From: Candidatus Sulfurimonas marisnigri
Lineage (GTDB): Bacteria > Campylobacterota > Campylobacteria > Campylobacterales > Sulfurimonadaceae
DNA length: 64,000 nt
Direction of reading: 5' to 3'
NCBI RefSeq assembly: GCF_015265475.1
Contig: NZ_CP054493.1
Span: 620,001 to 684,000, forward strand
Part shown: in pieces, positions 38,806 to 60,768 of the stretch
Position numbering within the stretch: position 1 is the first letter of the stretch
Layout: each line of letters starts with the position of its first letter
The notes under the pieces: generated by a model
Database searches by the model: none
Seen by the model: the letters and a program-made list of their open reading frames with translations, nothing else
Told to the model about the DNA's origin: nothing
Program-made: the position numbers and the translations under genes

Positions 38806-39102
38806 ATGAAAATTTATTCTGATGATGGGCAATGCTTTGTTGACATGGAATATGCCTTAACTATTGAAGAAGTTGCAATCTTTCATAAAGAAATCACCCC
38901 AATTCTACTAACAGATAAAGAGTTCGTAATTCACTGTGTTGATCTTAAAGCGATAGATTCAGCAGGTTTACAAATCTTAATCTCTCTAAAAAAATATCTT
39001 GAAAAAGAAGAAAAAGTTTTTGAAGTAACTGCTGGAATTAAGTTTAACGAATTCATTGATTTTTTTAAACTAGGTGAATATTTTAAAGGGGCAATAGTAT
39101 GA
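38806..39102 (+). CDS. STAS-domain protein, first gene of the chemosensory operon
   Basis: 98 residues, a single STAS domain of the anti-sigma-factor-antagonist type, with the switch serine Ser52 in 'KAIDSAGLQILI'. In the Spo0A-antagonist family this serine is phosphorylated by a partner kinase. AAAGG precedes the ATG, and the gene overlaps cheA by ATGA (39099-39102). A STAS protein opening a CheA operon suggests a link between chemosensory output and a partner-switching pathway (inference). No anti-sigma factor or Ser/Thr kinase gene is adjacent. Confidence 0.85.
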   Translation: MKIYSDDGQCFVDMEYALTIEEVAIFHKEITPILLTDKEFVIHCVDLKAIDSAGLQILISLKKYLEKEEKVFEVTAGIKFNEFIDFFKLGEYFKGAIV

Positions 39103-41096
39103 ATTTAGATTTCATAGATATGCTCGACGGATATAAAGCAGAAAATGATGAGTTGCTTCAAAAGATGGAAGATGCTCTAATGCAGATTCAAGAAGAGGGC
39201 ATGAATGATGAAAACATTAATGCTGTCTTTCGCGCTGCACATACCATTAAGGGTAGTTCTGGTATGTTCGGCATAGATTATATAGTTGAGTTTACGCATA
39301 TAGCTGAGAACTTATTAGATAAAATCAGAAATCATAAGATACCAATGAGCGGTGAAATCATTGAACTCCTTTTAGCATGTAAAGACCAGATGCAAATACT
39401 CATCAACTTTGTTATGAGTGACCCTGAAGGGCATCCAGATGAAGATATAAAGAGTGACAGCAAAAGACTGATAAATGAGTTGCAAGCCCATTTAGATGGT
39501 AATGACAATCTACATGTAGAAGAAACAGTCGAAATAGTTGAATTAATTGAGATAAACGAGTACCAAATAAAAATAGATTTTGCCTCCGATACATTCAGTC
39601 ACGGTTTTGACACATATACCTTTATAAATTTTCTTCATGAATTAGGTGAAATAAAAAATATTCAAACAGACACAGAATCTATTCCTATATTTACAGATAT
39701 TAATCCATCAAATTGTTACATGTCATATATTATAGATGTGCACAGCAGTAAAGATTCTCAAGAATTGGAAGCAGCTTTTGATTTTGTTAAGGAGGGCTCC
39801 ACAGTTTCAGTTATAGACTTATCAGAAAGTAAACAAAAGCCTGAGCCCGTAAAAACTATTGAGAAAAAGAGAGAAATCCAGATAGAGGGCTCTAAAGCTA
39901 AAAATACTCCTCAAGCCGTAAAGCAGACAAATTTTATTCGTATAGAAGCTTCAAAAGTTGATAGTTTAATAAACCTTATAGGTGAAATGGTTATTTCAAA
40001 CGCAAGTGTGATGCAACATGCTGCAAATTTGAGAGACTCAGAACTGATTGAATCGGTCTCTACAGTCACTAGAATGCTTGAAGAGGTGAGAGAAAATGCC
40101 ATGCAGATTCGTATGGTTCCTATTGGTGAGACGTTTAATAAGTTTAAACGTATTGTGCACGACACTGCAAATAAGGTTGGTAAAAAAGTAGACCTTATCA
40201 TTAATGGAGGAGATACAGAGCTTGACAAAACAGTAATAGAAAAGATAGCAGATCCGCTTGTTCACCTTATACGAAACTCTATTGACCACGGCATAGAAAC
40301 TCCAGATGTAAGAGAAGCGTTTGGCAAAAGTATTACCGGTGTTTTACATCTAAATGCTTACCATGATGCAGGCTCCATAGCAATTGAGATTATAGATGAT
40401 GGAAAAGGGCTTGATGCTGAGGTTCTTTTGAGAAAAGGTATAGAAAAAGGTCTTATAGACGAACAAAGCGAACCTACTCAAAAAGAGATTTTCGATCTGA
40501 TTTTGCAGGCAGGGTTTTCTACTGCAGAAAAAGTAAGCGATATATCGGGCAGAGGTGTCGGTATGGATGTCGTAAAACGAAATATCAGTGATCTTCACGG
40601 CGGCATAGAGATAGAGAGTGAAAAATCTAAAGGTACTAAAGTTACGATTAGGTTACCTTTGACCTTGGCAATAATAGACGGATTTTTAACAAAAGTTGGC
40701 AATACACATATAATAATACCGTTAGATATGCTGGTTGAGTGTATAGAGTTAAATAAAAAGACCATAGCACAAATGCATAACAACAGCTATATTAACCTAA
40801 GAGGGAGAGTCCTTCCACTTCTAAATATAAGCACCTATTTTAAAATACCTCACAGCGATACAGCTAGGAGTAATGTAATAGTAATTCAATATGCAGGACA
40901 AAGGATGGGGATAATAGTTGATGAACTCCTAGGCGAACTTCAGACTGTTATCAAGCCAATGGGACAGCTCTTTAATGAGTTAAAGTATTTTAGCGGCTCA
41001 ACTATTTTGGGGAGCGGTGAAGTAGCGTTAATAATGGATATTCAGGTAATGCTTCAAATGATGGAATCAAAACAAAAAAAAGAGCTTGTAGCTTAA
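39099..41096 (+). CDS. cheA: Chemotaxis histidine kinase CheA
   Basis: 665 residues. P1 HPt domain with His48 in '[15 protein letters not shown]'; a P2-like region at about 150-250; P3 dimerisation at about 285-350; P4 ATP-binding with '[14 protein letters not shown]', 'DDGKGLD' and 'GRGVGMDVV'; and P5 CheW-like at about 515-655. Unlike the flagellar CheA of many Campylobacterota it carries no C-terminal receiver. It takes signals from the receptor encoded next and should phosphorylate a receiver such as CheV, CheB (57263) or a single-domain receiver (53850, 58327). Confidence 0.94.
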
Positions 41097-41110: not shown

Positions 41111-43525
41111 ATGTTAAACAATATGACGATTAAAGCAAAGATTGGTTTAAGTGCCGGTACTTTAGTTGCTTTTGTAAGTACACTTTTAGTAGTGGGGTTA
41201 GTATCTTCAGATGTACTCAAAAATGGTATTGAATCAGTAAAAGAATTAAAAAATCAGGAGCTGCATACCCATGAAATGATTGGCGCTCATGAGTCATATG
41301 TTGGCGAACTCTCAAGTGCTGCATTAGTTAGTGGAAAATTCAAAAAGGCGTCAGTTAGCCATACAGAATGTATACTTGGCAAATGGTACTCTACTCTTAA
41401 AGATACGAAAGGGTATAGCAAACTTTCTTCATCTATGAAAGAAGAGATAGAGGTTATGATAAAAAGTCATGAAAAGATTCATAATATCGCAAAATATTAT
41501 GATAGCGAGTATATACATATAAATAAAAATTTAAAAGCTATGCTAATGCAGGGAATAAGTGACCATCTAAAGTGGTCCAAACAACTACTTAGTGATATAA
41601 GCTTTAATCAAAAAGTATCAGTTCAAAAGGACCCAACGCAATGTAAGGTTGGCAAGTGGTACTATAACTTTAAAGATAGTGAGGAATTTTCTAAACTTAG
41701 TCAAAAAGATATTTCAGAATTCAAAGAACTTGAAGCTTCACATTCATTACTCCATAACAGTGTTAAAACTATTAGTACTATCCAAAACAAAGACAAAGCA
41801 TTAAATTACTACAAATACAACACTGAAAAGCATTTGCTAAGCGTTATAAATATATTTGAAAATAAGCTCTCAGATATTAAATATATAAATGACAAAAATC
41901 AAGTGATATTTAAAGAAGTTTCAGTTGATATACCTGTATTGCTTGATAATGTAATATCAACGCTACATAAATATGACGATGTTGAAATGGAATATATGGC
42001 AGTAATTGAAGAGGAGATAGATTCAAACGGCAAATTGATCAAGATTATTTATTTGATAATAGGCATTTTGTCAGTTTTTCTTCTCTTTTTTGTTGCAATC
42101 GTTATTCTTAATTTGCTTAAAGATGTTAATGAGTTAGGCAAAGGAATCAACAGTTTCTTTGGGTATCTCAACAAAGAGCAAAAGAGCGTAAATACAATAG
42201 TTAAAAATTCTAATGATGAAATTGGAAATATGATAGAGGTTATTAATACAAATATAACAAAAACAAAAGAGAATTTTGATGAAGATAATGCTGCTTTTGA
42301 TGACATTGTTGATAAACTTGCCCTTCTCTCAGAAGGTGATTTTAGCGCTACTATAAATGCCACATACAGCGGTAATTATGGACGAGCAAAAGATGCCATT
42401 AATAGTACTATCTCAAATATAAAAGAGATCGTTGAAGAGATTGCAGAGGTGCTTAAAGGCATTGACGATGGACATCTAGACAGAGAGATACGCATTGAGT
42501 TTAAAGGTGGATACGCACAGATTAAAACTTCTATAAACTCTATGTCTAATAACTTAAGCAATGTCATAGAGACTATTGACAACTCTTTACAAAAACTAGC
42601 AAGTGGTGATCTTGATGCTAAGATTGGTGCAGATTTACCAGGTGATTACAATCAGTTAAAAGTTGCTATTAATAAAACTATTGAAAAACTAAATACTATT
42701 ATTGGAAGTGTAAATGAATCTACGTTACAGATTGCATCAGCTGCTGATGAAGTAAGTTCTGCTGCACAGTCACTCTCAACTGGGGCTACAGAGCAGGCAA
42801 GTAGCCTTGAAGAGACAACAGCTGCTGTAGAAGAGATGGCAGGGGGGATAAGCCAAAATGCCCAAAATGCAAGAAAAACAAATGAAGTATCAAGAAAAAC
42901 TTCTTCAATGGCCAAAGAGGGGGGAGAGGCAGTTTATAAAACTGTAGATGCAATGCGTAATATTGCTGGAAAAATTGGGATAATTGAAGATATTGCATAC
43001 CAAACTAATCTATTGGCACTAAATGCAGCTATAGAAGCGGCTCGCGCCGGTGAGCATGGTAAAGGGTTTGCAGTAGTTGCAAGTGAGGTTCGTAAACTTG
43101 CAGAGAGAAGCCAGACTGCAGCGCAAGAGATTAGTCAGATAACTACCGATAGCGTAAAGATAAGTGAGCATGCAGGAACTCTTCTTAGTGAAATAGTTCC
43201 AAGTATAGAGCAGACATCTGAACTTATAGAAGAGATATCAAGTGCATCTTCCGAACAAGATACAGGAATTTCCCAGATTAATTATGCCATGACAAATCTT
43301 GACCAAGTAACACAGCAAAATGCTTCAGCTAGTGAAGAGTTAGCAAGTGCCAGTGAAGAGATGAGTTCACAAGCTACTCACCTAAAAGAGTTGGTAAGTT
43401 TTTTCAAAATAACAGGAGTTACAAATCAAGTTTCAATACAAAAAACTGCACCTACAGCTAAAATAGTAAAAGATAATGAGCCAGAAGCAAACTTGGAAAA
43501 TAGTAATAATTTTGTTCAGTTTTAA
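41111..43525 (+). CDS. Methyl-accepting chemotaxis protein with two CZB domains
   Basis: 804 residues. Membrane segments at about 12-32 and 313-337. The periplasmic part holds two chemoreceptor zinc-binding (CZB) units: first His60, Cys87 in 'ECILGKWY', His120, His124; second His152, Cys178 in 'QCKVGKWY', His211, His215. HAMP-like repeats follow (about 340-520), then the methyl-accepting signalling domain with the hairpin tip '[21 protein letters not shown]'. The known CZB ligand is zinc, and reported roles include zinc, pH or hypochlorite sensing. AAAAAAAGGAAAAAAA precedes the start, 14 bp after cheA. Confidence 0.93.
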
Positions 43526-43543: not shown

Positions 43544-44038
43544 ATGAGTACTGCCAATCAAGATAGTAGTGACAATCAGTTCTTAACATTTTATGTTGCT
43601 GGTGAAATATACGCTCTTTCAGTTTTGCATATAAAAGAAATTATTGAGTATTCAATAGTTACTAAGGTACCATTAATGCAAGAGTGCGTTAGTGGCATTA
43701 CAAATATTAGAGGCAGTGTGATACCTGTAATAGATTTGGGAATTCGTTTAAATATTTCACATACACAAACCATAAATAAAAGAACATCAATTATAGTTAT
43801 CGAAAAAGAGGATGAGATACAAAACTTTCAAGTTGGACTTGTAGTTGATGAGGTAAATGAGGTCTATGACATCATCACAAAAGAGCAAGAAGATGCACCT
43901 GTGTTTGGCAGTAAAATTAGAAAAGAGTTTATTGAGCATATTGGAAAAGTTAAAGGGTCATTCATACCAATATTAAACTCCTCAGAATTAGTTAATATTG
44001 AAGAGCTATCAAAAGTAAACAATGCAAAGGATGCATAA
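43544..44038 (+). CDS. cheW: Chemotaxis coupling protein CheW
   Basis: 164 residues, a single CheW domain that links receptor and CheA. Typical features are 'FYVAGEIYALSVLHIKEI', 'GITNIRGSVIPVIDLGIRL' and 'VGLVVDEVNEV'. AAAGGAG precedes the ATG and the stop overlaps the CheV start by one base. It is the plain scaffold protein of this chemosensory array, beside a second, receiver-bearing coupling protein. Confidence 0.94.
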   Translation: MSTANQDSSDNQFLTFYVAGEIYALSVLHIKEIIEYSIVTKVPLMQECVSGITNIRGSVIPVIDLGIRLNISHTQTINKRTSIIVIEKEDEIQNFQVGLVVDEVNEVYDIITKEQEDAPVFGSKIRKEFIEHIGKVKGSFIPILNSSELVNIEELSKVNNAKDA

Positions 44039-45000
44039 TGTCAGAAATTCATGTAGACAATGATTTTGATGAAATCATATCAATAGAATTAGAAAATGAT
44101 GAACTTGTTAGGCTTGTTACAAGCAATGCAGATGTTGCCAGTCAGTATGTTGTCTTTCAAAATTCTAATGATGAATATTTTGCAATAAATGTTGCTAAAG
44201 TAGAAGAGCTAATAGAATATAAAATACTTGATGTCACAAAAACAACCGATAGTTCAGGAGTTATGAAAGGCACAGCAAAAATTCGCGAGCATTTTGTCAA
44301 TATTGTCTGTTTTGATTCTTGGCTAGGTATTAATAGTAGAGATAACTCAATCTATGAGTTAGTAATTCTTTGTGATTATGCCGGAGTAAGATTGGCTATT
44401 ATTGTTAAGAGTGTTTATGGGGTACTAAATATCGAACCATCTGAAATGTTTGATGATTCAGATAAAGATACAAGGATCTCTTACCTTTGTGAAATTGTTG
44501 TAAATAACAAAAAAATTCTATGTAAAGTTTTTGACAGTGATCAGTTTTTAGCAGATGTGATGCCAAGCAAGTTTGCCAAAGAACTACAAAAGAGTGAAAT
44601 GATTAGCAGTAATGATAAGAATGTTATAAATAAAGAGATTTTGATTGCTGAGGATAGTGTTTTAATTCAAAATGCCGTTAAACAACTGATGGAAAAGATG
44701 CAGCTTTCATATCAGGTGTTTAATAATGGCAAAGAGCTTTTGGATTCACTTAAGAATGAAAATATTGATAATATAGGACTAATTATTACAGATTTAGAGA
44801 TGCCTGTGATGGGTGGACTTGAACTGCTAAAAGAGTGCTTAAATCATGATTATTACCGTAAAATCCCAATTGTTGTAAATACGAATATGGCAAACGCGAG
44901 CATAATCAATACGGCTGAAAAACTTGGAGCAAGAAAAGTAATTAAAAAACTTGACTTACTAACTCTTAGAGAGGTAATATTAGAATATGCCGATAGATAA
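44038..45000 (+). CDS. cheV: CheV: CheW-receiver coupling protein
   Basis: 320 residues: a CheW domain (about 30-185) with 'KIREHFVNIVCFDSWLGI', followed by a receiver (about 200-320) with Asp in 'LIITDLEMPVMGG' and Lys in 'KVIKKLD'. CheV proteins adapt or buffer signal strength when phosphorylated by CheA. The N-terminal 30 residues are acidic and additional. It overlaps cheR by 14 bases. Confidence 0.9.
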   Translation: MSEIHVDNDFDEIISIELENDELVRLVTSNADVASQYVVFQNSNDEYFAINVAKVEELIEYKILDVTKTTDSSGVMKGTAKIREHFVNIVCFDSWLGINSRDNSIYELVILCDYAGVRLAIIVKSVYGVLNIEPSEMFDDSDKDTRISYLCEIVVNNKKILCKVFDSDQFLADVMPSKFAKELQKSEMISSNDKNVINKEILIAEDSVLIQNAVKQLMEKMQLSYQVFNNGKELLDSLKNENIDNIGLIITDLEMPVMGGLELLKECLNHDYYRKIPIVVNTNMANASIINTAEKLGARKVIKKLDLLTLREVILEYADR

Positions 45001-45817
45001 ATACTCTGTTTTACATGTTAAAATAACTGATGGTGAATATATTAAATATAGAGAGATAATATATGAGACTACAGGTATAGAGCTAAAAGAGAATAAGCAC
45101 AACCTTATAGAGAGTCGTTTAATGAAGCGACTTAGATATTATAATATGAGTAGCTATAGTGAGTATTACCAATTAGTGTTAAAAGATAGAACCGAGCTAC
45201 AATTGATGATAAATCAGGTAACGACTAATGAGACCAGTTTTTTTCGTGAAAATAAACATTTTGACTACCTTGTTCGCAGAATATTACCAGAAGTAAATGA
45301 GCAACTGCGTATTTGGAGTGCAGCATCTTCTATAGGTGTGGAGGCATATACTATAGCAATGGTTGTAGATGAAGTTTTGTCTATAAGGCATTTGCCATTT
45401 GAGATATTAGCAAGTGATATTAATATAGATGTATTGTCACAAGCAAAACAGGCAGTGTATGATATAAAGTTTTCTAAAAATATACCTGATAATTATCTAC
45501 GACAATACTGCTTAAAAGGTGTTGGAGATATGCAAAACAAATTCGCTATAAAAGATTATTTGAAAAATAAACTATCATTTGCTCAGATAAATTTAACAAA
45601 GCCAATAAGTCCAAATGTGGGAAAGTTTGATATAATTTTTCTTAGAAATGTTCTTATATATTTTGACATTCAAACAAAACAAAATGTTGTAAAACATGTT
45701 CTGCAACACTTAAAACCAAATGGTTACTTCTTCATAGGACACTCTGAATCACTTTTTAATATTAGTGATGAAGTAGTTCAGGTTATGCCTACAGTTTATC
45801 AGAAGGTCGTCCTATAA
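44987..45817 (+). CDS. cheR: Chemoreceptor methyltransferase CheR
   Basis: 276 residues. The N-terminal helical domain ('LIESRLMKRLRYY', 'TTNETSFFRE') and SAM-binding domain ('WSAASSIGVEAYTIAM', 'FLRNVLIYFD', 'YFFIGHSES') are complete. The SAM motif reads ASSIGVEAY where most family members have SxGEEPYS, so a Val replaces one Glu. It methylates receptor glutamates, presumably those of the adjacent MCP. Its last 29 bases overlap the end of the convergent REC-EAL gene. No CheB is in this operon; a full CheB is at 57263 on the other strand. Confidence 0.92.
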   Translation: MPIDKYSVLHVKITDGEYIKYREIIYETTGIELKENKHNLIESRLMKRLRYYNMSSYSEYYQLVLKDRTELQLMINQVTTNETSFFRENKHFDYLVRRILPEVNEQLRIWSAASSIGVEAYTIAMVVDEVLSIRHLPFEILASDINIDVLSQAKQAVYDIKFSKNIPDNYLRQYCLKGVGDMQNKFAIKDYLKNKLSFAQINLTKPISPNVGKFDIIFLRNVLIYFDIQTKQNVVKHVLQHLKPNGYFFIGHSESLFNISDEVVQVMPTVYQKVVL

Positions 45818-49959: not shown

Positions 49960-50997
49960 CTAATTAAGTATTTTAGGTATTGCATATTTAAAAGAAGTAA
50001 CGCCATTTTCGGAAATAACTTCTGTTTTTATATTGTATGTATTACATAAAGATGAAACAATTTCTAAACCAATTCCCATACCAATATTTTCAAAATCTTC
50101 TCTGTACCCTTGTTTAAAAATCTTTTCCGGATGATTGATAGTGCTTCCAATATTGGAAGATTTAAATATTACACTGTCGTTACTGTTTATAATATCTATG
50201 CTAACTGTTGAACCATCTTTTGCATACTTTATTGCGTTAGATATTGTATTGTCAACTATTCTATATAAATCCACTTCTCGAATTTGTATTTTACTTACCT
50301 CAAAACTTTGCAAATCAATATTGATATTTTTGCTCTTTCTAAAATAGTAAAAATAATCTATTCTCTTTTGCACAAATTTTACAAGGTCAATTGATAGTAC
50401 ATTTTCATGATGATTACGAGATGAGAGTGAATAATACAAATCATCATAAACTAATTGAAGTGTATTTGATGCTACAGTTATGGAGTCTGTATAACGGGTA
50501 TTACCATGCTTTAAGTTTTGCATCTCAACAGAGGTGTTTATAATTGTAAGAGGATTATAAAGTTCATGGTAAGATTTACGTAATAGCTGCTTAAGAGATT
50601 TAAAAAGTAAACCTTTTTGAAGGTGTAATTTAACTCTGGCAATTAACTCTTCTTGTAAAAATGGTTTAGCTATATAGTCATCTACACCATAAGAAAAGCC
50701 TTTTATTTTATCCTCAACACCACCAAGTGCAGAGATAAATATGATTGGTATGTCTTTGTGTTTATTATGATTCTTAAGTATTTTGCATACTTCATATCCA
50801 TCCATATTAGGCATGACAATATCGAGCAAGATAAGGTCAAAGTCATAAGTACCTACACTTTTTAGAGCATCTTTAGCACTTAATGACACAAAAATTTCCA
50901 GATTAAGAGGTTCTAGCATATCAAGAAGGATGGTTATGTTTTCGGCCTTGTCATCAACGAGCAATACTTTAGGATTGTCATTTTCTACTAAATCCAT
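49960..50997 (-). CDS. Receiver-histidine kinase hybrid
   Basis: 345 residues. A receiver opens the protein (Asp in 'LILLDIVMPNMDG', Lys in 'YIAKPFL'). The kinase part is compact: His in 'SYHELYNPLTIIN', N-box 'VDNTISNAIKY', and G2 'GMGIGLEIV'. The G1 Asp-x-Gly motif is not recognisable (it reads 'FKSSNIGS'), so ATP binding may be impaired. AAAAGG precedes the ATG. It may work as a phosphatase or relay protein in place of an autokinase (inference). Confidence 0.85.
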   Translation of the reverse strand: MDLVENDNPKVLLVDDKAENITILLDMLEPLNLEIFVSLSAKDALKSVGTYDFDLILLDIVMPNMDGYEVCKILKNHNKHKDIPIIFISALGGVEDKIKGFSYGVDDYIAKPFLQEELIARVKLHLQKGLLFKSLKQLLRKSYHELYNPLTIINTSVEMQNLKHGNTRYTDSITVASNTLQLVYDDLYYSLSSRNHHENVLSIDLVKFVQKRIDYFYYFRKSKNINIDLQSFEVSKIQIREVDLYRIVDNTISNAIKYAKDGSTVSIDIINSNDSVIFKSSNIGSTINHPEKIFKQGYREDFENIGMGIGLEIVSSLCNTYNIKTEVISENGVTSFKYAIPKILN

Positions 50998-51875: not shown

Positions 51876-53849
51876 CTAAACTTCACCCTTACAAACAATC
51901 TCAAAAGAGCTACCATTTTGAGTTGCTGTATATATTAAATCACCGTTAAAACTCTTTTTCATTATATCCATGCTCATATAAAGACCAATTCCGGTACCTT
52001 TTCCTTGTTCTTTTGTTGTGAAGTATGGGTTAAATATTTTATCTCTTATTTCTTCTGGTATTCCACCTGCATTATCTTCTATGACTATTATTGGTATATT
52101 CTCTTTCATATCTATGGTTATATTTATAAACTTGTCTGCACTCTCTATATCTTCAAAAGCATCTCTTGCATTTGCGAGAATATTTATGATTACCTGTTCT
52201 AATAGGTCTTCATAACCTACCATTGAGATATTTTCATTAGTTACTTTAACATCTACATGTATGCTGTGATTGGTTAGTTGTGTCCCCATTATTTGTATAA
52301 TAGCTTCTATTGTATGAGAGAGTCTAAATGGTTTTGACTCCTTTGCCGGTTTTACGAAGTTCATAAAGGTGTCAATTGTTTGCGACATGTTTTGGCATTG
52401 GTCTTGAATAAACTCACTGCTCTCTTGTATTTTTTGTGGTTCAAGCATTCCCATGCTTGAGAGTAGTGAGAGATTAATACCTGTTGCACTTATGGCATTT
52501 AGCGGTTGTCTCCATTGGTGGGCTATCATGCCTATCATCTCTCCCATTTGCATAAGTTTATTATTCTGAAATTTATTCTTCTCTTTTTCTTTGCTCTTTT
52601 GTAGCTTCTCATTGACACTATCTTCCCACTCATGTGCTATAACATTAGTCATATGTGTTAATGCATGTGTTATTTTACTCTCTTTCATATCTGCAGCAGG
52701 TAGGTTTCTATTATGTGCATATTTGCTATTATTTATCTGCTCGGATTCTCTTAATGCCAAAATAGTCATTGTTTCGTTAAATAGATAGTTGTCATTAGCA
52801 TCTGAAAAAAATTCTCCATAGACAAAAAAGCCACTTACACTGCACTTATTTGCAAATTCTCTGAGTTCAAAATAGCTGTCATCTTTTAGTAAATGTCGTC
52901 TTGCCATGCAAGAATACACAAAAACAGACTCAGGAGTAAAAGAGTCTTTGAAATCTTTAAATTTATTAACACCATCTCTTAAAATATTGTCAATACCTCC
53001 AACTGCAAAACGTATCTCTTCATTTTCTCTAAGATCACCTCCAAAAAGTAAAGAACCGTCTTCTAGTGCTTTTAAACAAACACGAGCAATTTTGACACCA
53101 TTGCGTGATATAATTAATGGAGTTTCAAACCCTATTTCAGGAAATAGTTCTTCTATATTATTGCCAAAGTATTTTTTATATACGTCTAGTGCTGCAACAT
53201 TGTTAATTTCATATACTCTATTTGCTATACTTTTTGTAACCTTCATAGATAGCCCAACCGTTTCCCAACCAAACTTGTACTGACTCTTTACATGTAGATC
53301 TTTTCCTTTTAGCGCAACCCCAACAGAGCCTTTTTTAATTACACTGTTTCCATGAGTAATATATGTTTGTTTGAAACTTGCATTATCCCCTGCCATACCA
53401 CCTGAAACAATAAACTTTCCTTTAGAGATAGTTTTTACTCCATCAAGAAATTGTTCACCGCTCACAAGTAACCCTGCCGTAAAAAAAACCATGGCTTTGA
53501 CATCATCAGCATCAAGGTTTGATGCTATGTCACGTCCCATTGTGAAGGAATCACTACCATATATGACTCCAACTGAACTTATAGTACTAGTTTCAAACAC
53601 AGAGACACTTATGATTATTTTATTTGTGCTGACTTTATCATTGTAAATTTCACCATCTGTTGTTGCTCCAATAATATGTGCACCTGGAAGATTACTGCAC
53701 AATGCAGAGGCAATTTTTTTCATAATTGCCTCTTGTGAAATACCACAGAAAAACTGCACTAAACACTCTTTTTTAGAGCTAAACTCATGCTTGCAGAGCC
53801 ATTCATGTAGTATCTCTTCATTTCTGTAATAGTGGTTTAATGTATACAC
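51876..53849 (-). CDS. FIST-domain sensor histidine kinase
   Basis: 657 residues with GTG start (53849) directly after the upstream stop (TAGGTG). Residues about 25-230 are FIST-N ('FFCGISQEAIMKKIASAL', 'IIGATTDGEI') and about 230-380 FIST-C; these domains are predicted sensors of small molecules. A coiled linker leads to the kinase core with '[10 protein letters not shown]', N-box, G1 and G2 intact. No membrane segment, so it should sense a cytoplasmic ligand. Its catalytic core is DNA-identical to that of the PAS-GAF kinase at 47413. It lies in a coupled minus-strand gene string with receivers on both sides. Confidence 0.92.
   Translation of the reverse strand: MYTLNHYYRNEEILHEWLCKHEFSSKKECLVQFFCGISQEAIMKKIASALCSNLPGAHIIGATTDGEIYNDKVSTNKIIISVSVFETSTISSVGVIYGSDSFTMGRDIASNLDADDVKAMVFFTAGLLVSGEQFLDGVKTISKGKFIVSGGMAGDNASFKQTYITHGNSVIKKGSVGVALKGKDLHVKSQYKFGWETVGLSMKVTKSIANRVYEINNVAALDVYKKYFGNNIEELFPEIGFETPLIISRNGVKIARVCLKALEDGSLLFGGDLRENEEIRFAVGGIDNILRDGVNKFKDFKDSFTPESVFVYSCMARRHLLKDDSYFELREFANKCSVSGFFVYGEFFSDANDNYLFNETMTILALRESEQINNSKYAHNRNLPAADMKESKITHALTHMTNVIAHEWEDSVNEKLQKSKEKEKNKFQNNKLMQMGEMIGMIAHQWRQPLNAISATGINLSLLSSMGMLEPQKIQESSEFIQDQCQNMSQTIDTFMNFVKPAKESKPFRLSHTIEAIIQIMGTQLTNHSIHVDVKVTNENISMVGYEDLLEQVIINILANARDAFEDIESADKFINITIDMKENIPIIVIEDNAGGIPEEIRDKIFNPYFTTKEQGKGTGIGLYMSMDIMKKSFNGDLIYTATQNGSSFEIVCKGEV
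51892..52531 (-). repeat. Perfect 640-bp direct repeat, copy B (kinase core)
   Basis: Second copy of 47429-48068. Upstream of it the two genes encode unrelated sensors (FIST against PAS-GAF). Downstream, the repeat ends within the last codons, giving different C-termini (CRGRE against CKGEV). Confidence 0.93.
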
Positions 53850-54269
53850 CTATTTCTCATTTTTTTCAAGATTTATCATATGTGATATCTTTAAAAGGAG
53901 CTCTAACATTTTATCCATTTTGATAGGCTTTAGTAAAAAACCATCAAGTTGTAAATCTATTGTTTCCATAAGATTCTCACTACTATTGTGCGCTGTCAAT
54001 ATAATTACATGTTGATTGTTATTTATTTTTTTAATCTCTTTAACCATTGTTAAGCCATCCATGTTTGGCATAGTTAAATCTGTCATAACTAAATCTGCTT
54101 TGCTGTATCTATAGACTTCAATTGCATCTAGCCCATCTTTTGCAATAAAAACTTTCTGAAAAAAAAGTTCTAGTATCTGAGAAATTTGCTTACGTGTGTC
54201 CTCTTCATCTTCAACATATAAAACAGACAAGTATTGTGCTTCCTTCTTAAGTCTTTCGTTTATATTCAT
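53850..54269 (-). CDS. Single-domain response regulator
   Basis: 139 residues, a lone CheY-like receiver: acidic pair in 'LYVEDEEDTR', phospho-acceptor Asp in 'LVMTDLTMPNMDG', Thr in 'IILTAHN' and Lys in 'FLLKPI'. The start overlaps the upstream REC-GGDEF-EAL stop by ATGA and its stop abuts the FIST-kinase GTG. It is closely similar to the receiver of the 45789 protein ('LTMPKMDG', 'ILLKPV'), suggesting a shared kinase. Confidence 0.9.
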   Translation of the reverse strand: MNINERLKKEAQYLSVLYVEDEEDTRKQISQILELFFQKVFIAKDGLDAIEVYRYSKADLVMTDLTMPNMDGLTMVKEIKKINNNQHVIILTAHNSSENLMETIDLQLDGFLLKPIKMDKMLELLLKISHMINLEKNEK

Positions 54270-55948
54270 AGTATATCCTTCAAAGGTTCAGATATGTAAT
54301 ATCCTTGTGCATAGTCTATACCTAGCTCTTTTATAATTTTATATGTCTCTTCGTCATGTACAAATTCTGCGATTGTATTAACCCCACTATGCTTTGCATA
54401 AAAAACTATAGTTTTTACAATAATCATACTATTTTGATTTAGTGCAATATCTTTAATAAACGAACCATCAATCTTAAGATAATCTATTTGTAACTTTTGT
54501 ACTCTTGCAAAATTAGAACTATCTGCACCAAAGTCGTCTATTGCAATTTTAAATCCAATATTTTTTAGTTTTTCCATTTGAAAGTTTGCATGCTGTAAAT
54601 CATAGTCACTAATATTTTCCAGTACTTCAAGTGCAACTTGTGAAGGATGAATATTGTGCTTTTCACAATGCTCTAGTAGGTAGTCTACTAAATACCCCTC
54701 TTTAAAATCATCATCTGTTATGTTTATGGAAAACTCTTTGTTACATGTAGAAAATGTTTTAAATGATTTTTCAATCATCCGTCGTGTAATATCAGTAACC
54801 ATACCTGCTATACGTGCAGCTTCTATAAAATAAGAAGGAAAGATAGTCTCCTCTTGTTCTATAATTCGTGCTAAGCATTCATACTTTTCTATTTCATTAG
54901 TGGCTAAGTTTATAATAGGCTGATAATATGGAATTAGTAGGTCAAAATCTAGTGCGAGTTTAGTTTTATGAGCCCATTCATGCATTTTTTGCTGGTATTG
55001 CTCTGTTTTAGAATCTGGCTGGTAGTGACCAATTACATTCTTATGCACCTTCCTCATATCCATAATTGCAAGCTGTGCTTTAGAATAAGGAATTGAAATG
55101 TCATTATCATTAATAGATATAATACCAATTGAAAATGTTATTCTAACATGTATGGAACCAATCTTAAATCGCTTGGTATATACTTTTTTCTTAATTTCCT
55201 GCGCAAGCTTTAAAGATTTTTCTGCAGATGATGACTCAAGGGCTATGAAAAACTCATCACCAATACCTTTGTATATAGTATGATGAGTTATTTGTTTTAA
55301 AAAACTTGCAACACCTTTAAGTAATAAATCTCCATTATCATATCCATACGAACAATTAATATGTGAGAAGTTATCAATATTTAGTAAAATACCATCGTTG
55401 AATCTGCTTGTTATAAAATCTAAATGCAGTTTCTGTTTATTTGGTAATCCTGTAATTGGGTCATATTCAAGTTGATTTATAAGTTCTTTGGCTTGATTGT
55501 CAACTCTATTTTCTAGTTCTTCTTGATAAAAACTATTCTCTTTTTCAATTTTCAAAGAAACTACTGTTTTTTCAATTGCTTCAAACATCTGGCTAGCATT
55601 TATAGGTTTTAATATATATCCATCTACGCCACTTTTAATTGCTTTAACAATTATATCTGCTTCAGTATGTGCCGACATAACAATAATTTTTTGTTTTTGA
55701 TTTATCTTTCTAACTGCTTGAGTCAGTTCAAAACCATCCATCTTGGGCATGTTTAAATCAGTGATAATTATGTCTACTCTTTTACGTTTGTAAATTTCCA
55801 ATGCTTCCTTTCCATCTTTTGCTACTAAAACAACTGAAAAAAGATGTGTTAATATGCTCTCTACTTCTCCCCTTGCGTCTTCATCATCGTCAATAAGCAG
55901 TGCAGAGAAACGTGAACAAATTTTACTGATTTTTTTTACATCATACAT
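54266..55948 (-). CDS. Receiver-GGDEF-EAL protein (c-di-GMP turnover)
   Basis: 560 residues. Receiver at about 15-130 (Asp in 'IIITDLNMPKMDG'). GGDEF domain at about 165-300 with the signature 'GIGDEFF' (first Gly replaced by Ile), so diguanylate cyclase activity is uncertain. EAL domain at about 315-555 with 'ECLARI', 'SINITDD', 'LEVLEN', 'AIDDFGADSSN' and 'YLKIDGSFI', which keeps the metal and catalytic residues, so phosphodiesterase activity is likely. Phosphorylation of the receiver probably tunes it. Overlaps the upstream kinase by 8 bases and the downstream receiver by ATGA. Confidence 0.92.
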   Translation of the reverse strand: MYDVKKISKICSRFSALLIDDDEDARGEVESILTHLFSVVLVAKDGKEALEIYKRKRVDIIITDLNMPKMDGFELTQAVRKINQKQKIIVMSAHTEADIIVKAIKSGVDGYILKPINASQMFEAIEKTVVSLKIEKENSFYQEELENRVDNQAKELINQLEYDPITGLPNKQKLHLDFITSRFNDGILLNIDNFSHINCSYGYDNGDLLLKGVASFLKQITHHTIYKGIGDEFFIALESSSAEKSLKLAQEIKKKVYTKRFKIGSIHVRITFSIGIISINDNDISIPYSKAQLAIMDMRKVHKNVIGHYQPDSKTEQYQQKMHEWAHKTKLALDFDLLIPYYQPIINLATNEIEKYECLARIIEQEETIFPSYFIEAARIAGMVTDITRRMIEKSFKTFSTCNKEFSINITDDDFKEGYLVDYLLEHCEKHNIHPSQVALEVLENISDYDLQHANFQMEKLKNIGFKIAIDDFGADSSNFARVQKLQIDYLKIDGSFIKDIALNQNSMIIVKTIVFYAKHSGVNTIAEFVHDEETYKIIKELGIDYAQGYYISEPLKDIL

Positions 55949-57248
55949 TTTCTGAATCCTGCTCTATATAATTACCGAAAGTAATTTTAAAACAACTACC
56001 ATCAATAACAGGCATATAAGTTAAGTCACCGTTAAAGTGTGTTCTCATTATTTTACGACTCATATACAGACCCAAGCCTGTCCCGTTTACATCTTGTTTA
56101 GTTGTAAAGTATGGGTTGAAAATATCATCTATTATCTGAGGTGGAATTCCCCCGGCATTGTCTTGTATCTTTACATTTCCAAGTTTGTCTATTTGTATTA
56201 AAATCTCTTTTTTGTTAATCTCTTTTTTTCCTTCAAAAGCATCTCTTGAATTAATAAAAATGTTAAGTAAAACTTGCTCAAATAGATTTTCTGAACCTAG
56301 TAATTTTTTATTTTTAAATTCTTTATCAAACTCTGTTTCTATATAAATAGAGTGTAATGACAACTGTGTATTAACAATGTTTAATGCCTTGTGGATTGCT
56401 GATGGTAGTAAAAACTCACTGTCCTCAGCAATTGGTTTAGAAAATTCAAAAAAATTATTGATAACTGTAGACATCTCTTGAGTCTTATTCTGAATGAAAT
56501 CGCTTGCATCATTTATGCTCTGTGTTGTACTTATATTCATGTCATTTTCAAGTTTTAATTTTATTGCTGAAGCACTAATAGCATTTAATGGTTGACGCCA
56601 ATGATGTGCAATCATTGAAACCATCTCACCGAGTTGAGCTTGTTTGGCTTGATTGTTTAGTACTTTGTCCTTATTTTTATTCTTTTTAACTTCATATATA
56701 ACTCTATTCTCAAGAGTTTTATTTATCTTTTCAAGTTCCTCAGTATATATGTCAACCTCTTTTTGAAAGGCATATATCAAGTAGGACATAAGAATATAAA
56801 TACTTAACAATAGTGAGATTTCTTCATTCTCATAAGCTGTTTTAATGTAGTGTAAATTTTGAAAGATTAAGAGAAACAAAATAATTGCTCCAAATGAGAC
56901 ACTCCAGATTAAGCCAGTTTTTTTAGAGTTAAGTAGAAAAGCAAATGATGAAAAAAGTAAACTCCAAGCAAATCCCATTCTATAGAGTCCACCTTCAAAA
57001 ATCAGAAATATGAAAAATATAGCTGTGGATATAAGAAATATTGTAGCTTTTTTATTACAAGAATAGGCACTGGTGTATTTTAAAATTATAAGAATAATTA
57101 AACCAGTTCCAATATCTACAAAAGCACTTGCTATATTGTCAATGAAAATATGAATAACAGCGATTACCGTAAGATAAAAAAGTAAAATGTAAAAAAAATC
57201 TATAAATCTAACACAGATGAAATTTTGCTCTGTCTTTAAATTTTCCAT
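55941..57248 (-). CDS. Multi-span membrane histidine kinase
   Basis: 435 residues. The first 175 residues contain about six hydrophobic segments with very short loops, so the sensor is embedded in the membrane. A coiled helix with 'NKTLENRVIYEVKKNK' follows, then the kinase core with H-box 'MIAHHWRQPL', N-box 'LLNIFINSRDAF', 'DNAGGI' and 'GTGLGLYMS'. It overlaps the REC-GGDEF-EAL gene by 8 bases, which makes that protein the first candidate for its phosphate. Confidence 0.9.
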   Translation of the reverse strand: MENLKTEQNFICVRFIDFFYILLFYLTVIAVIHIFIDNIASAFVDIGTGLIILIILKYTSAYSCNKKATIFLISTAIFFIFLIFEGGLYRMGFAWSLLFSSFAFLLNSKKTGLIWSVSFGAIILFLLIFQNLHYIKTAYENEEISLLLSIYILMSYLIYAFQKEVDIYTEELEKINKTLENRVIYEVKKNKNKDKVLNNQAKQAQLGEMVSMIAHHWRQPLNAISASAIKLKLENDMNISTTQSINDASDFIQNKTQEMSTVINNFFEFSKPIAEDSEFLLPSAIHKALNIVNTQLSLHSIYIETEFDKEFKNKKLLGSENLFEQVLLNIFINSRDAFEGKKEINKKEILIQIDKLGNVKIQDNAGGIPPQIIDDIFNPYFTTKQDVNGTGLGLYMSRKIMRTHFNGDLTYMPVIDGSCFKITFGNYIEQDSENV

Positions 57249-57262
57249 ATTAACTTCTTTTG

Positions 57263-58330
57263 TTACTTGATAGATTGAATTAATTCAATAATTTTTTCAA
57301 TACTTAACGAATGGGTGACACCGCCAAGTTTTACAGCTTCATTTGGCATGCCATAAACTACACAGCTATCTTCATCTTGAGCATACGTTTTTGCACCAAT
57401 ATCAAACATCTCCTTCATACCATGTGCTCCATCACCACCCATACCCGTAAGTATGATGCCAACACCACTTTTACCTAACTCATTTGCAAAAGAGCGGAAC
57501 AAGACATCAACACTTGGTTTATGATGAGAAATTTTTGGGCCATCTTTGATTTTTATAATATATTTTAATCCTACTCTTTGAACTAGCATGTGTGTATCTC
57601 CAGGAGCAATGTAAGCAGTTGATGATTTTAGTTCATCTCCATCCTCAGCTTCTTTTACAGATATGTTTGAAATAGAATCAAGTCTTTTAGCAAGTGAAGC
57701 TGTAAAGCCAGCTGGCATATGTTGTGTTATTAGAATAGGGACAGTTACGGATGGTAAAGAGGTGAGTATTTTTTCTATAACTTGCACACCTCCAGTAGAA
57801 GACCCAATTGCAATGACTCTTTTACCTCCAATAAATTGTGTATTTTTTTTCTGCATTACAACGTTGTCTGTAGTTTGCAAAATAGCGGAGTCTGTTTTTT
57901 TCTGCAAACTTGGAATTATTTTTAATTTAGAATTTGCTGCTGCTTTTATTGATTGTATTAAACTCTTTTTAGATTTTTCTAAAAATGTCTTAGTTTGTAG
58001 GTTTGGCTTTTCTATAAGCTCAACTGCTCCAGATTGAAGTGCTTCTATAGCCTTAAGGCTACCTGACATAGCTACACATGAACAAATAATAGTAGCAATT
58101 GGTTGCTCACTCATAATCTTTTTTAGAAATGTAATACCATCCATTCTAGGCATCTCAATATCTAAAATAATAACATCTGGAGTGCCAGTAGTTTTAAATT
58201 TTTGCATTGCAAAGATAGGATCAGCAGCAACTCCTAAAATCTCAATCTCGGATTCATTTTCTACAAGTTTACTAATTGTTTGGCGAACTATTGCTGAGTC
58301 ATCAATAATGAATAGTTTTATTTGTTTCAT
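57263..58330 (-). CDS. cheB: Chemotaxis methylesterase CheB
   Basis: 355 residues: receiver (Asp in 'IILDIEMPRMDG') and methylesterase domain with Ser in 'IGSSTGGVQ', His in 'TQHMPAGF' and Asp in 'TGMGGDGAHG', a complete catalytic triad. It removes methyl groups from, and deamidates, chemoreceptors. It lies 11 kb from the CheA operon on the opposite strand but is the only full-length CheB in the window and the natural counterpart of CheR (44987). Its start overlaps the upstream receiver stop by ATGA. Confidence 0.94.
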   Translation of the reverse strand: MKQIKLFIIDDSAIVRQTISKLVENESEIEILGVAADPIFAMQKFKTTGTPDVIILDIEMPRMDGITFLKKIMSEQPIATIICSCVAMSGSLKAIEALQSGAVELIEKPNLQTKTFLEKSKKSLIQSIKAAANSKLKIIPSLQKKTDSAILQTTDNVVMQKKNTQFIGGKRVIAIGSSTGGVQVIEKILTSLPSVTVPILITQHMPAGFTASLAKRLDSISNISVKEAEDGDELKSSTAYIAPGDTHMLVQRVGLKYIIKIKDGPKISHHKPSVDVLFRSFANELGKSGVGIILTGMGGDGAHGMKEMFDIGAKTYAQDEDSCVVYGMPNEAVKLGGVTHSLSIEKIIELIQSIK

Positions 58331-58737
58331 TTTAAATAGTTCCCACTATCTTTATAAAGTTGTTTTATAGCATTTACAATAGATAATTGAAGGGAATCTT
58401 GCGTTATTGACTTTATAAACCATCCATCTATACCAGCTTTTTTACCATCTTCTTTTGCCTCGCTAGTATATTCTGACGTAATCGCTATAATTGGCTTGTA
58501 CTTGTATTTTTTAATTTTTTTAGCTGTTTTGGCTAGGTCGTAGCCTGTAATTATGGGCATATTTATGTCAATAAACATTAAATCATATTCTAGTGATTCT
58601 TCTTCAATCATTTTTTTTATACTAATGGAGTCAGTAAAAAAATCGCATACTATAATTTTAGAGTCAATCATTTCTAAAACTAAAGATTTAAGTGTATCAA
58701 GTACAATTGTACTATCATCAATAAATATTATTTTCAT
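58327..58737 (-). CDS. Single-domain response regulator
   Basis: 136 residues from the ATG at 58737, with AGGAG seven bases before it; an ATG at 58752 lies upstream of that site and is rejected. Receiver with 'IDDSTIVLD', Asp in 'LMFIDINMPIITG', Ser in 'IAITSE' and Lys in 'FIKSI', where the usual Lys-Pro is Lys-Ser. It is a CheY-like candidate for CheA. It overlaps cheB by ATGA. Confidence 0.9.
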   Translation of the reverse strand: MKIIFIDDSTIVLDTLKSLVLEMIDSKIIVCDFFTDSISIKKMIEEESLEYDLMFIDINMPIITGYDLAKTAKKIKKYKYKPIIAITSEYTSEAKEDGKKAGIDGWFIKSITQDSLQLSIVNAIKQLYKDSGNYLK

Positions 58738-58760
58738 AATTGACTCCTGCATAATTTATA

Positions 58761-59999
58761 CTAACTAAAATCTTCTTCTATAAGTAGACACATAGACATA
58801 ATCTTATGGTCATCATAGTGAATATCCAAACTATCTTGATTTGTAATAATATTTTTAATCCACTCTTCTATAGTAACATTCAACTCTTCAATATGTCGAA
58901 CCATTTGTGTGTTTTTAGATTTTGTAAATGGTTTTATATCTTTGTTTTGAATGAGTATTGCAACACTTTGTAATGCTATGGAAATCCTGTCAAATTCAGG
59001 CACCTTTTTAAAAAGGCGTGTATATTTGTCAAATAAATTTATTAATGTCATACGTAGTGATACATTGTATGTACTGTCGTCTTGACACAATAGTCTGTAT
59101 TCTTTTAGGGAGTCAATCAGTTCATTTACATAAAACTGCAGGTCGTCTGAACTTATGTTCATTAGTTCATATGCTGAGAGCAATTCATTTTGATATTGAT
59201 TTATTTCAATGTTCTTTTTTTTCTCTTTAGCTAAAAAAGACACTATATTTATGCGAAATGAAAATGCTTTGCTATTTTTAGCATACTCAAAAAGTGTGCT
59301 GTTTTTTTTAACTAATGATTCCATAGTTTCTACAAAAAAACCATCTCTAACTGTTATATAAATATAGGAGTCAGACTCCTCTATAATTAAGTCAAACAGT
59401 TGATTTTTAGTGTCCATTTTTCTGAAAGCTTTAACTAGTGCAACCATGAAATCTTTTAAAAGAAGAGAGTTATATGATATGTTTTGATTTGAGAAATAAT
59501 CAAATACTAAGAATAAATCATCTTCTTCAGTAATAGAAAAAGTGACAAAATAGTGTTTAATATGTTCATCTTTAAAACAGTTGTAGACGACGGATGGCTT
59601 GACATCAGGGATTGAACTTTTGTGTGTAATTAAAGAGGTTATTACTTTAAGTCTTGCAACAATATCATCAAGTTGGAATGGTTTAGCAATATAAAAATCT
59701 ACGCCACTTGCATAAATCTTTTGAATCTGCTCTTCTCCGCTTAATCCAGTTATAGCCGCAACAAATATATGCTTCGTTTGAGGTTGTGATTTAAGTAGTG
59801 CAGTAAAACGGATACCATCCATTTTTGGCATTAAGATATCAGTCAGTACAATGTCTGGGTGAAAAGTTTCAACAACTCCTAGAGCTTCTAAGCCATCTTC
59901 TGCTTCAGCTATTTCGTAGGTAGAACTTATTTTAACTTTTATTATATTGTGCAAACTTTCTCTAGTCTCTTTTGCATCATCAACTATTAATATCTTCAT
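58761..59999 (-). CDS. Receiver protein with unrecognised C-terminal region (long)
   Basis: 412 residues. Receiver at 1-120 ('VDDAKETRESL', Asp in 'IVLTDILMPKMDG', Lys in 'YIAKPFQ'). Residues about 145-250 match the C-terminal part of the next gene's product in order ('HYFVTFSITEEDDLF', 'LLLKDFMVALVKAF', 'IIEESDSYIYITVRD'), so the two share a domain not recognised here. A further helical region (about 260-412) is unique. GGGAG precedes the ATG, which lies inside the upstream gene (20-base overlap). Confidence 0.85.
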   Translation of the reverse strand: MKILIVDDAKETRESLHNIIKVKISSTYEIAEAEDGLEALGVVETFHPDIVLTDILMPKMDGIRFTALLKSQPQTKHIFVAAITGLSGEEQIQKIYASGVDFYIAKPFQLDDIVARLKVITSLITHKSSIPDVKPSVVYNCFKDEHIKHYFVTFSITEEDDLFLVFDYFSNQNISYNSLLLKDFMVALVKAFRKMDTKNQLFDLIIEESDSYIYITVRDGFFVETMESLVKKNSTLFEYAKNSKAFSFRINIVSFLAKEKKKNIEINQYQNELLSAYELMNISSDDLQFYVNELIDSLKEYRLLCQDDSTYNVSLRMTLINLFDKYTRLFKKVPEFDRISIALQSVAILIQNKDIKPFTKSKNTQMVRHIEELNVTIEEWIKNIITNQDSLDIHYDDHKIMSMCLLIEEDFS

Positions 60000-60768
60000 T
60001 AGAACTCCCTTTTGTTGGTATTTTTATCGTTATGCTATTAGACATATACTTTACCTCATAAGATTGTGGTATTGAATCTTCATTTTTTCTTAAAACTTCA
60101 ATAAAACTAAGGTTTGTACAGCTTAAATATACCGCATCGTATGATGTCTCAAGCATTATTTCAAAAGCTCCATCAAATTCATCGTTAAGTGATTCATAGC
60201 TTTTTAGAAGAATTGAAATAAAATCTTTGAGCATAAGTTTATTAGCCTCAGGGTAAAGAACTGCCAAGTGGTGAATGATTTGATATAAATCTTCTTCTTG
60301 CAAAATTGTAAAAATTGTATAGTAGTTTGTCATAACTGGTACATTAAAAGGGTTAAAGGTGTCTCTTATCAATTCGGGGGCAGGTTTGTCTTTTTGAACA
60401 AGTTTATATATTAGCTTTAGTCTAGCTATTATATCTTCTTGCTGGATTGGTTTAGGTATATAGTAGTCAGCCCCGCAAGAGAAGACTTTTTTAACTTGTT
60501 CTTCTCCACTCAGACCAGTGATAGAAGCAATAAATATATGCTTTAATGACTTATTGTCTTTAACTTGTTTAATTAGTTCAAAGCCATCCATCTTCGGCAT
60601 CATAATATCTGTCAATAAAATATCTATTGGATAATTATTAATAATCTCTAATGCCTCTGCACCATTATCAGCTTCAATTATTGTTACACTATTGTCTATG
60701 GCATATATAATAATATTCTTTAATACTTCTCTGGTCTCTTTAGCATCTTCAGCGATTAAGATATTCAT
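59980..60768 (-). CDS. Receiver protein with unrecognised C-terminal region (short)
   Basis: 262 residues and first gene of the 60768-51044 minus-strand string. Receiver at 1-120 ('AEDAKETREVL', Asp in 'ILLTDIMMPKMDG', Lys in 'YIPKPIQ'). The C-terminal 125 residues ('NYYTIFTILQEEDLY', 'LMLKDFISILLKSY', 'MLETSYDAVYLSCTN') are paralogous to the middle of the 58761 product. The receivers are also close, including 'IASITGLSGEEQV', so the pair arose by duplication. AGGA precedes the ATG. Confidence 0.85.
   Translation of the reverse strand: MNILIAEDAKETREVLKNIIIYAIDNSVTIIEADNGAEALEIINNYPIDILLTDIMMPKMDGFELIKQVKDNKSLKHIFIASITGLSGEEQVKKVFSCGADYYIPKPIQQEDIIARLKLIYKLVQKDKPAPELIRDTFNPFNVPVMTNYYTIFTILQEEDLYQIIHHLAVLYPEANKLMLKDFISILLKSYESLNDEFDGAFEIMLETSYDAVYLSCTNLSFIEVLRKNEDSIPQSYEVKYMSNSITIKIPTKGSSNEDINS

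Follow-up and report, generated by a model that had tools for sequence, protein, structure and literature searches.

Tandem receiver proteins with a predicted RsbW/SpoIIAB-like domain in a chemosensory cluster of Candidatus Sulfurimonas marisnigri

Lineage-restricted accessory proteins are known from chemotaxis in the Campylobacterota, among them CheO and the receiver-containing protein ChePep, and the proteins described here are likened to these two by description rather than by sequence. CheO is reported to be without any known domain (PMC9665402). More generally, 21% of the response regulators of free-living generalists in this phylum carry other output domains, mostly of unknown function, according to a survey (PMC9239204). 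LvrC of Leptospira is reported to be a receiver-Bergerat response regulator that is phosphorylated by a histidine kinase, was crystallised with ADP-Mg and is proposed to be an anti-sigma factor (PMC13269768). A different kind of accessory protein is represented by CheS of Sinorhizobium, a STAS-only protein, which binds CheA and changes the traffic between CheA and CheY, as summarised in a review (PMC12654446).

The locus compared with these systems lies in a window of 64,000 nucleotides (the whole stretch of DNA analysed; contig NZ_CP054493.1, positions 620,001 to 684,000) from Candidatus Sulfurimonas marisnigri. Two adjacent receiver proteins, reported in an earlier note on this DNA, are confirmed as open reading frames that overlap by 20 bases on the minus strand, and Pfam Response_reg heads both (E 2.4e-24 and 7.4e-24); they are termed RR-M and RR-M-C (Table 1). 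Two more Pfam rows for RR-M (E 0.14 and 0.19) fall below the cut-off. Both proteins are REC response regulators by the presence of the acidic pair, the phospho-Asp, the Thr and the Lys of the active site (D7/D8 or E7/D8, D54, T84 and K106). The stretches that follow the receivers are related, as had been noted (23/90 residues identical, 51/90 positive, E 7e-11 in a single BLASTP comparison), and the shared region, put earlier at about 110 residues, forms a domain of about 115 residues, M. The pair heads a packed minus-strand string that includes CheB; this string, put earlier at 10 kb, makes up the right half of a chemosensory cluster beginning near 38.8 kb. The cluster (38.8 to 60.8 kb) is complete, with the STAS-like gene, CheA, a chemoreceptor, CheW, CheV and CheR on the plus strand; the minus strand carries two receiver-GGDEF-EAL proteins, additional receivers, four proteins of kinase type (of which one contains FIST and another is headed by a receiver), CheB and the pair.

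Table 1. Features of the RR-M/RR-M-C locus and its chemosensory cluster (positions within the window).
Feature	Position	Strand	Basis
98-aa STAS-like protein, 4-base overlap with cheA start, possible partner	38806..39102	+	sub-threshold STAS_2 and STAS
CheA (Hpt, dimerisation, ATPase, CheW domains), likely phosphodonor	39099..41096	+	domain scan
Chemoreceptor with CZB domain	41111..43525	+	domain scan
CheW	43544..44038	+	domain scan
CheV (CheW-receiver)	44038..45000	+	domain scan
CheR	44987..45817	+	domain scan
FIST-domain sensor histidine kinase	51876..53849	-	Pfam
Single-domain receiver	53850..54269	-	Pfam
Receiver-GGDEF-EAL	54266..55948	-	Pfam
Histidine kinase	55941..57248	-	Pfam
CheB	57263..58330	-	Pfam
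Single-domain receiver (CheY-like)	58327..58752	-	Pfam
RR-M-C: receiver, M domain and C domain, 412 aa	58761..59999	-	ORF, Pfam, model
C domain of RR-M-C, helical bundle, CheA-P1-like, about residues 259-412	58764..59225	-	model
DIHYDD motif of C domain, residues 392-397, start of last helix	58809..58826	-	alignment and model
M domain of RR-M-C, residues 138-252	59244..59588	-	comparison and own model
RR-M: receiver and M domain, 262 aa	59980..60768	-	ORF, Pfam, BLASTP
M domain of RR-M, residues 137-252	60013..60360	-	BLASTP; fold inferred from models of relatives

Beyond the receiver, neither M nor the C-terminal domain of RR-M-C (C) was identified by any Pfam family at E 1, and PF13581 (HATPase_c_2) was absent from the families returned for the two proteins at that threshold. 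An NCBIfam scan of four window proteins, RR-M and RR-M-C among them, placed the best 25 of 87 and of 97 families below their cut-offs and all on the receiver, with some of the matches extending beyond it, the furthest being Spo0A (RR-M residues 2-194; 65 bits, cut-off 200). In 54 aligned relatives Pfam recognised the receiver in 54/54 and, among the best 25 of 26 families, other matches scattered in 1 to 9 members (best E 3.6e-4), with PF13581 absent from these 25 at E 0.1. PHROGs gave a single weak unnamed match in 1/15 members, comparison of M with the sequences of solved structures gave nothing credible (best E 1.1), and no earlier description of M or C regulators was found in the open-licence literature among the matches listed. 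The statement that the shared region matches no output domain thus holds, in that no profile library used here identifies M.

Structure prediction is more informative. In the AlphaFold model of RR-M-C (54 sequences; mean pLDDT 81.8, pTM 0.43), M has the order strand-helix-helix-strand-strand-helix-strand-strand and C is helical. The complete 412-aa model was uninformative on M and C, all 50 fold matches listed for it being receivers, and the search was therefore run with the M-C part of a relative, L039 (299 aa; 58 sequences, mean pLDDT 87.0, pTM 0.54), in which the order of strands and helices in M is the same. Ranks 1-12 in Foldseek were taken by chains of RsbW, UsfX/SigF-anti-sigma and SpoIIAB (prob 0.84-1.00, E 0.015-0.16) and rank 13 by LvrC (9qih_A, E 0.17), with 0/502 matches reaching E 0.001. 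VIA-align superposed M on RsbW 6m37_A over 100 residues (Z 9.7, rmsd 2.9) and, among the 50 matches listed, on seven more RsbW/SpoIIAB-family entries (Z 7.9-9.3), the range for further entries of this family being 7.9-9.6. The assignment of M is thus consistent across many chains of a single family. CheX, CheC and CheZ were not among the 50 matches listed by either program, which excludes nothing. An RsbW/SpoIIAB-type Bergerat fold is fairly well supported for M as modelled, and M is probably no new fold, since its model matches these Bergerat domains. Because profile-profile comparison confirms neither the fold of M nor that of C, both assignments derive from structure; hhalign gave M a probability of 0.4% against the RsbW set, the value also obtained with a CheW control, and the comparisons of M and C with ATPase, HPt and control families were all negative. 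A profile-profile match of M to a receiver set at 99.2%, attributed to truncated ORFs that begin in M, dropped to 0.3% with a cleaned set (46/56 kept) and was discarded.

Compared with RsbW/SpoIIAB proteins (PF13581), the model of M shares the overall fold and the order of strands and helices, and the domain differs in its fusion to a receiver, in the lack of detectable profile similarity and in the lack of ATP motifs. The motif D.G.[GPA] occurs in 0/66 M sequences, compared with 12/13 of an RsbW-type set picked by PF13581, 11/28 histidine kinases and 38/40 CheA ATPase domains; G.G[LIVFM] is found in 7/66 M sequences versus 9/13 of the RsbW set, and an N-box pattern, itself narrow (4/28 histidine kinases), in 11/66 versus 13/13. 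The looser D.G or G.G, at any position, is present in 36/66. The most constant residues of M are N3 (61/65), F5 (62/64), Y50 (59/66) and E68 (66/66). LvrC offers the same arrangement of a receiver followed by an RsbW-type Bergerat domain that the models suggest for RR-M and RR-M-C, a likeness of architecture, but it differs, as far as the available text of its report goes, in having been obtained with ADP-Mg, in the absence of a C domain from its description and in its donor, a histidine kinase, the M genes lying near CheA. Given the LvrC precedent and the RsbW fold, M would be a variant of a known fold, and the proposal in the earlier note of a new output module is partly right: M is conserved, unrecognised, lineage-restricted and linked to che genes, but probably not new in fold. 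As for a clear match to a described family, Pfam and NCBIfam provide no identification, and the fold match, by model, reaches E 0.015 at best.

The C-terminal part of RR-M-C, described earlier as a helical extension of 150 residues, is helical in the model (about residues 259-412) but is not a mere extension: C is a second widespread domain, which occurs also with receivers and PAS domains without M. The three best VIA-align matches of C in the L039 model are CheA P1 domains, with Z 12.8 (125/125 residues, rmsd 3.1), 12.2 and 12.2, followed by designed four-helix bundles at Z 11.0 and 10.8; for a helical bundle, Z 12.8 lies within the range that the tool assigns to a possible common arrangement. 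Foldseek places CheA P1 at rank 31 (3kyi_A, E 0.8, prob 0.75), below unrelated helical chains, hhalign gives C a probability of 1.7% against CheA P1 (CheR control, 2.0%), and comparison of C with the sequences of solved structures returned nothing credible, the best being a designed protein (E 0.017). A five-helix bundle resembling CheA P1 (HPt) is moderately supported for C by the model, less so than the assignment of M.

Set beside CheA P1, C has a possibly similar bundle in the model and the same chemosensory gene context, but it lacks the phospho-histidine. The HPt histidine motif is found in 4/80 C domains versus 27/28 CheA P1 domains, and no column of the second helix of C has 20% His or more. 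A nearly invariant Tyr in this helix (78/80) would fall, if the aligned ranges are interpolated, near the place of the P1 histidine, by our estimate. The constant residues of C include F, W, D-x-H-Y-x-D at the fifth helix and, at the C-terminus, an acidic tail whose last residue is F. Occurrence of D.H..D in 80/80 C domains is partly built in, as the loci of 78 were themselves detected by a pattern based on this motif; in 40 C domains drawn from 70 profile matches, mostly the weaker ones, the strict form is present in 24/40, and its description as invariant was dropped, while 34/40 end in F. The window protein has DIHYDD; the acidic tail with final F of most relatives is missing from it and from the protein of genome G058. 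In most C domains (L039 to L118 and L193 to L232) an acidic run precedes a short hydrophobic terminus that closes with Phe, and this tail looks like a docking tail. The analogues weighed were RssB, HsbR, CrsR, ChpT, Spo0B, AHP6 and the C-terminal tails of SSB and CheZ. For pseudo-HPt proteins the literature matches listed were plant papers.

M and C are both found well beyond the window genome. Relatives of the M-C region of RR-M-C are present in 21/60 related genomes, compared with 3/60 for the M of RR-M, and the profile search that had been suggested as a check recovered M in 48/397 sampled genomes of the phylum. The C profile matched 33/298 genomes of the phylum, a count that includes two weak matches (G158 and G042) later rejected on reading, one being a repetitive helical protein and the other read as an MCE-type protein; the other weak C matches were counted by profile. 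A C-motif pattern scan of contigs gave 107 stretches, of which 87 were confirmed and the best 80 kept. Since the taxa of these 80 loci are Campylobacterota except for L051 ('Proteobacteria bacterium') and L093 ('bacterium'), C looks, within the reach of this motif, confined to the phylum. The loci were chosen by C, whose presence in all 80 is thus built in; M is recognised in 62 of them and unrecognised in 15, and 3 are fragments. Among 27 C proteins picked to include other architectures, 24 match the receiver and 6 match PAS_8. In two C proteins with M unrecognised, L108 (554 aa) and L112 (552 aa), the N-terminal part may be a degenerate receiver.

The tandem arrangement itself is a rare branch of the M proteins and not their typical form. 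Whole RR-M was matched at E <= 1e-35 in 4/135 genomes of the genus (the window genome, G460, G488 and G461), and the pair is also present in G058, a genome from another family. Of the M matches listed in the phylum search, those from the window genome and G058 alone lie in short frames (262 and 266 codons), the others being in open frames of at least 407 codons. The orthologues of RR-M are intact (74-76% identity in G460 and G488, in both of which a long gene overlaps the orthologue, and 48% in G461), with dN/dS of 0.08 versus G460 and 0.17 versus G461; values for the pair against relatives within the genus range from about 0.07 to 0.17, rough figures given that dS is either saturated or 1.7-2.9. 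A tree of 57 receiver-M sequences unites the window pair with the G058 pair in one clade (100/100), within which short groups with short (98/75) and long with long (98/71); the duplication is therefore older than the split of the lineages, or the pair was transferred together. The position of this clade in the tree is unsure because long branches meet there. A further receiver-M-C protein of the window genome, at 1.206 Mb, ends a string read as CheA, CheR, kinase, CheD, CheB and receiver-PAS-kinase.

Inspection of the neighbours of distant matches, likewise suggested earlier, supports the linkage to chemosensory genes. In 13 of the 14 genomes examined, M lies within 7.4 kb of a CheA gene, the distance in the remaining one (G213) being 653 kb; these 14 are M-bearing genomes of one or two contigs chosen out of the 48, and are not independent because nine belong to one genus. 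For the window pair, the distance to its CheA is 19-20 kb. At least one core che gene is present at 45/62 named M-C loci versus 6/15 C-without-M loci. The neighbours of the G058 pair, by reading, are CheA, CheB, CheR, CheV, CheW, two chemoreceptors, two GGDEF-EAL-type receivers and a FIST kinase.

In the window, the 98-aa protein encoded directly upstream of cheA matches STAS_2 (E 3.7e-5, 24.3 bits, cut-off 29.2) and STAS (21 bits, cut-off 22.6), all below threshold, and scores 18.5 bits against ant_ant_sig (cut-off 53.45). Like CheS, the window and G058 versions are small STAS-like proteins, here encoded directly with CheA; the likeness is one of description and not of sequence, the window match being sub-threshold, and binding to CheA is reported for CheS (PMC12654446). 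A gene of 80-99 aa adjoins or overlaps the start of cheA at 27/29 CheA ORFs that reach 550 aa or more, with 12 partial ORFs excluded, the other two being L092, without a small gene by this test, and L069, at a contig end. A profile built from nine of these genes found the gene at 12/16 CheA of one class and 0/14 of a higher-scoring class, taken as the flagellar F3 type; it misses the window CheA, where the gene is STAS-like but divergent. STAS likeness, below the cut-off, is confined to the window and G058 versions, with no STAS match in 17 other aligned small proteins and nothing credible among the sequences of solved structures. By the profile, the gene is absent at the CheA adjoining M in G361, G374 and G383 and present at two CheA far from M in G361 and G374; its use as a marker of M clusters was weakened by these three absences and two presences, so that the gene goes with a CheA class and not with M. 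The conserved 80-94-aa protein beside cheA at loci such as L243, L058 and L084 is without a credible Pfam match and accompanies one CheA class, with M near or not.

The preferred reading here, held tentatively and at somewhat less than even confidence, is that RR-M and RR-M-C serve an extra chemosensory (CheA) system as response regulators of an adaptor type, non-catalytic and gated by phosphorylation. Their receivers have the residues needed for phosphorylation, and the donor would likely be the CheA of this cluster or one of its histidine kinases. M, as a predicted RsbW/SpoIIAB-type output devoid of the ATP motifs, should therefore bind a partner rather than phosphorylate one, and C, the second output of RR-M-C, a five-helix bundle whose likeness to CheA P1 is the weaker of the two model-based assignments, lacks the phospho-histidine and may therefore occupy receivers or CheA without accepting phosphate. 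Phosphorylation of the receiver would gate the contacts of both domains, for which we infer partners; in the window, the STAS-like protein coupled to cheA would be a candidate for M and no more. The tandem pair would stem from an old duplication in one branch, with one copy lacking C. If this reading holds, degenerate kinase parts, a pseudo-ATPase and perhaps a pseudo-HPt, would serve as switchable binding modules in chemosensory systems. M and C are in any case two of the other-output domains of the Campylobacterota, now provided with alignments, models and genomic context.

The same models could be read as a receiver-controlled anti-sigma factor of the LvrC kind, in which M sequesters a sigma factor, phosphorylation alters this and C is an accessory interaction part. 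The best matches of the M model (RsbW, UsfX and SpoIIAB), the precedent of LvrC as a receiver-Bergerat protein proposed to be an anti-sigma factor, and the gene of a LuxR-type regulator that is divergent from the pair and neighbours it are in keeping with this; D.G.[GPA] is, however, missing from 66/66 M sequences, whereas LvrC was crystallised with ADP, the linkage is to CheA, and no sigma factor was recognised among the 19 scanned proteins of the cluster and its neighbour, so that this explanation is rather unlikely. Were C instead an unrelated helical bundle, its likeness to P1 reflecting only a common arrangement, M and C would contact partners outside the phosphorelay. The nearly equal scores of designed bundles, the low Foldseek rank of P1, the hhalign probability of 1.7% and the absence of a receiver match from 3/27 C proteins of mixed architecture favour this possibility, which is nonetheless judged unlikely, if the least so of the alternatives, in view of the three best VIA-align matches, all CheA P1 and spanning five helices, and the occurrence of C in CheA clusters.

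Involvement of the D.H..D region of C in a phosphatase or a phosphate sink, which would dephosphorylate other receivers or drain phosphoryl groups from CheA, is suggested by the crowding of several receivers in the cluster and by the rank of D-x-H-Y-x-D, the W and the terminal tail among the most strongly conserved features of C. Against this, RR-M is without C, and D.H..D is too variable for a catalytic site, since the strict form is present in 24/40 C domains fetched by profile; such a role is distinctly unlikely. The idea that RR-M derives from RR-M-C as a partial copy in decay, lacking any independent role, is hardly credible: RR-M lacks C and is rare, the other listed M matches of the phylum lying in the longer frames, but orthologous pairs are shared by the window genome and G058, which belongs to another family, the orthologues in G460, G488 and G461 are intact, with dN/dS of 0.08 and 0.17 in the two comparisons made, and the active site of the RR-M receiver is present. 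An extension of the adaptor reading, improbable on present evidence, is that some chemosensory systems contain a built-in partner switch of the RsbW/STAS kind, in which a receiver-controlled pseudo-RsbW would capture or release a CheA-coupled STAS-like protein and a pseudo-P1 on the same protein would compete for receivers; if true, CheA-bound STAS proteins such as CheS would gain a class of partner, and the M-C regulators would be a new kind of feedback element.

Other signalling proteins of the window show features of their own. The receiver-headed kinase-type protein of the cluster (49960-50997) consists of a receiver, about 110 unassigned residues and HATPase_c. The sensor half of the FIST/FIST_C kinase (51876-53849) has a sub-threshold match to NosP, a nitric-oxide sensor (66.5 bits, cut-off 450), and the G058 cluster, by reading, holds a similar FIST kinase. 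At 3904-7605 and 7605-11111, two adjacent, very large proteins of 1233 and 1168 aa carry receivers that score identically in Pfam (89.1 and 56.6 bits in both), which suggests that a hybrid signalling protein was recently duplicated in tandem.
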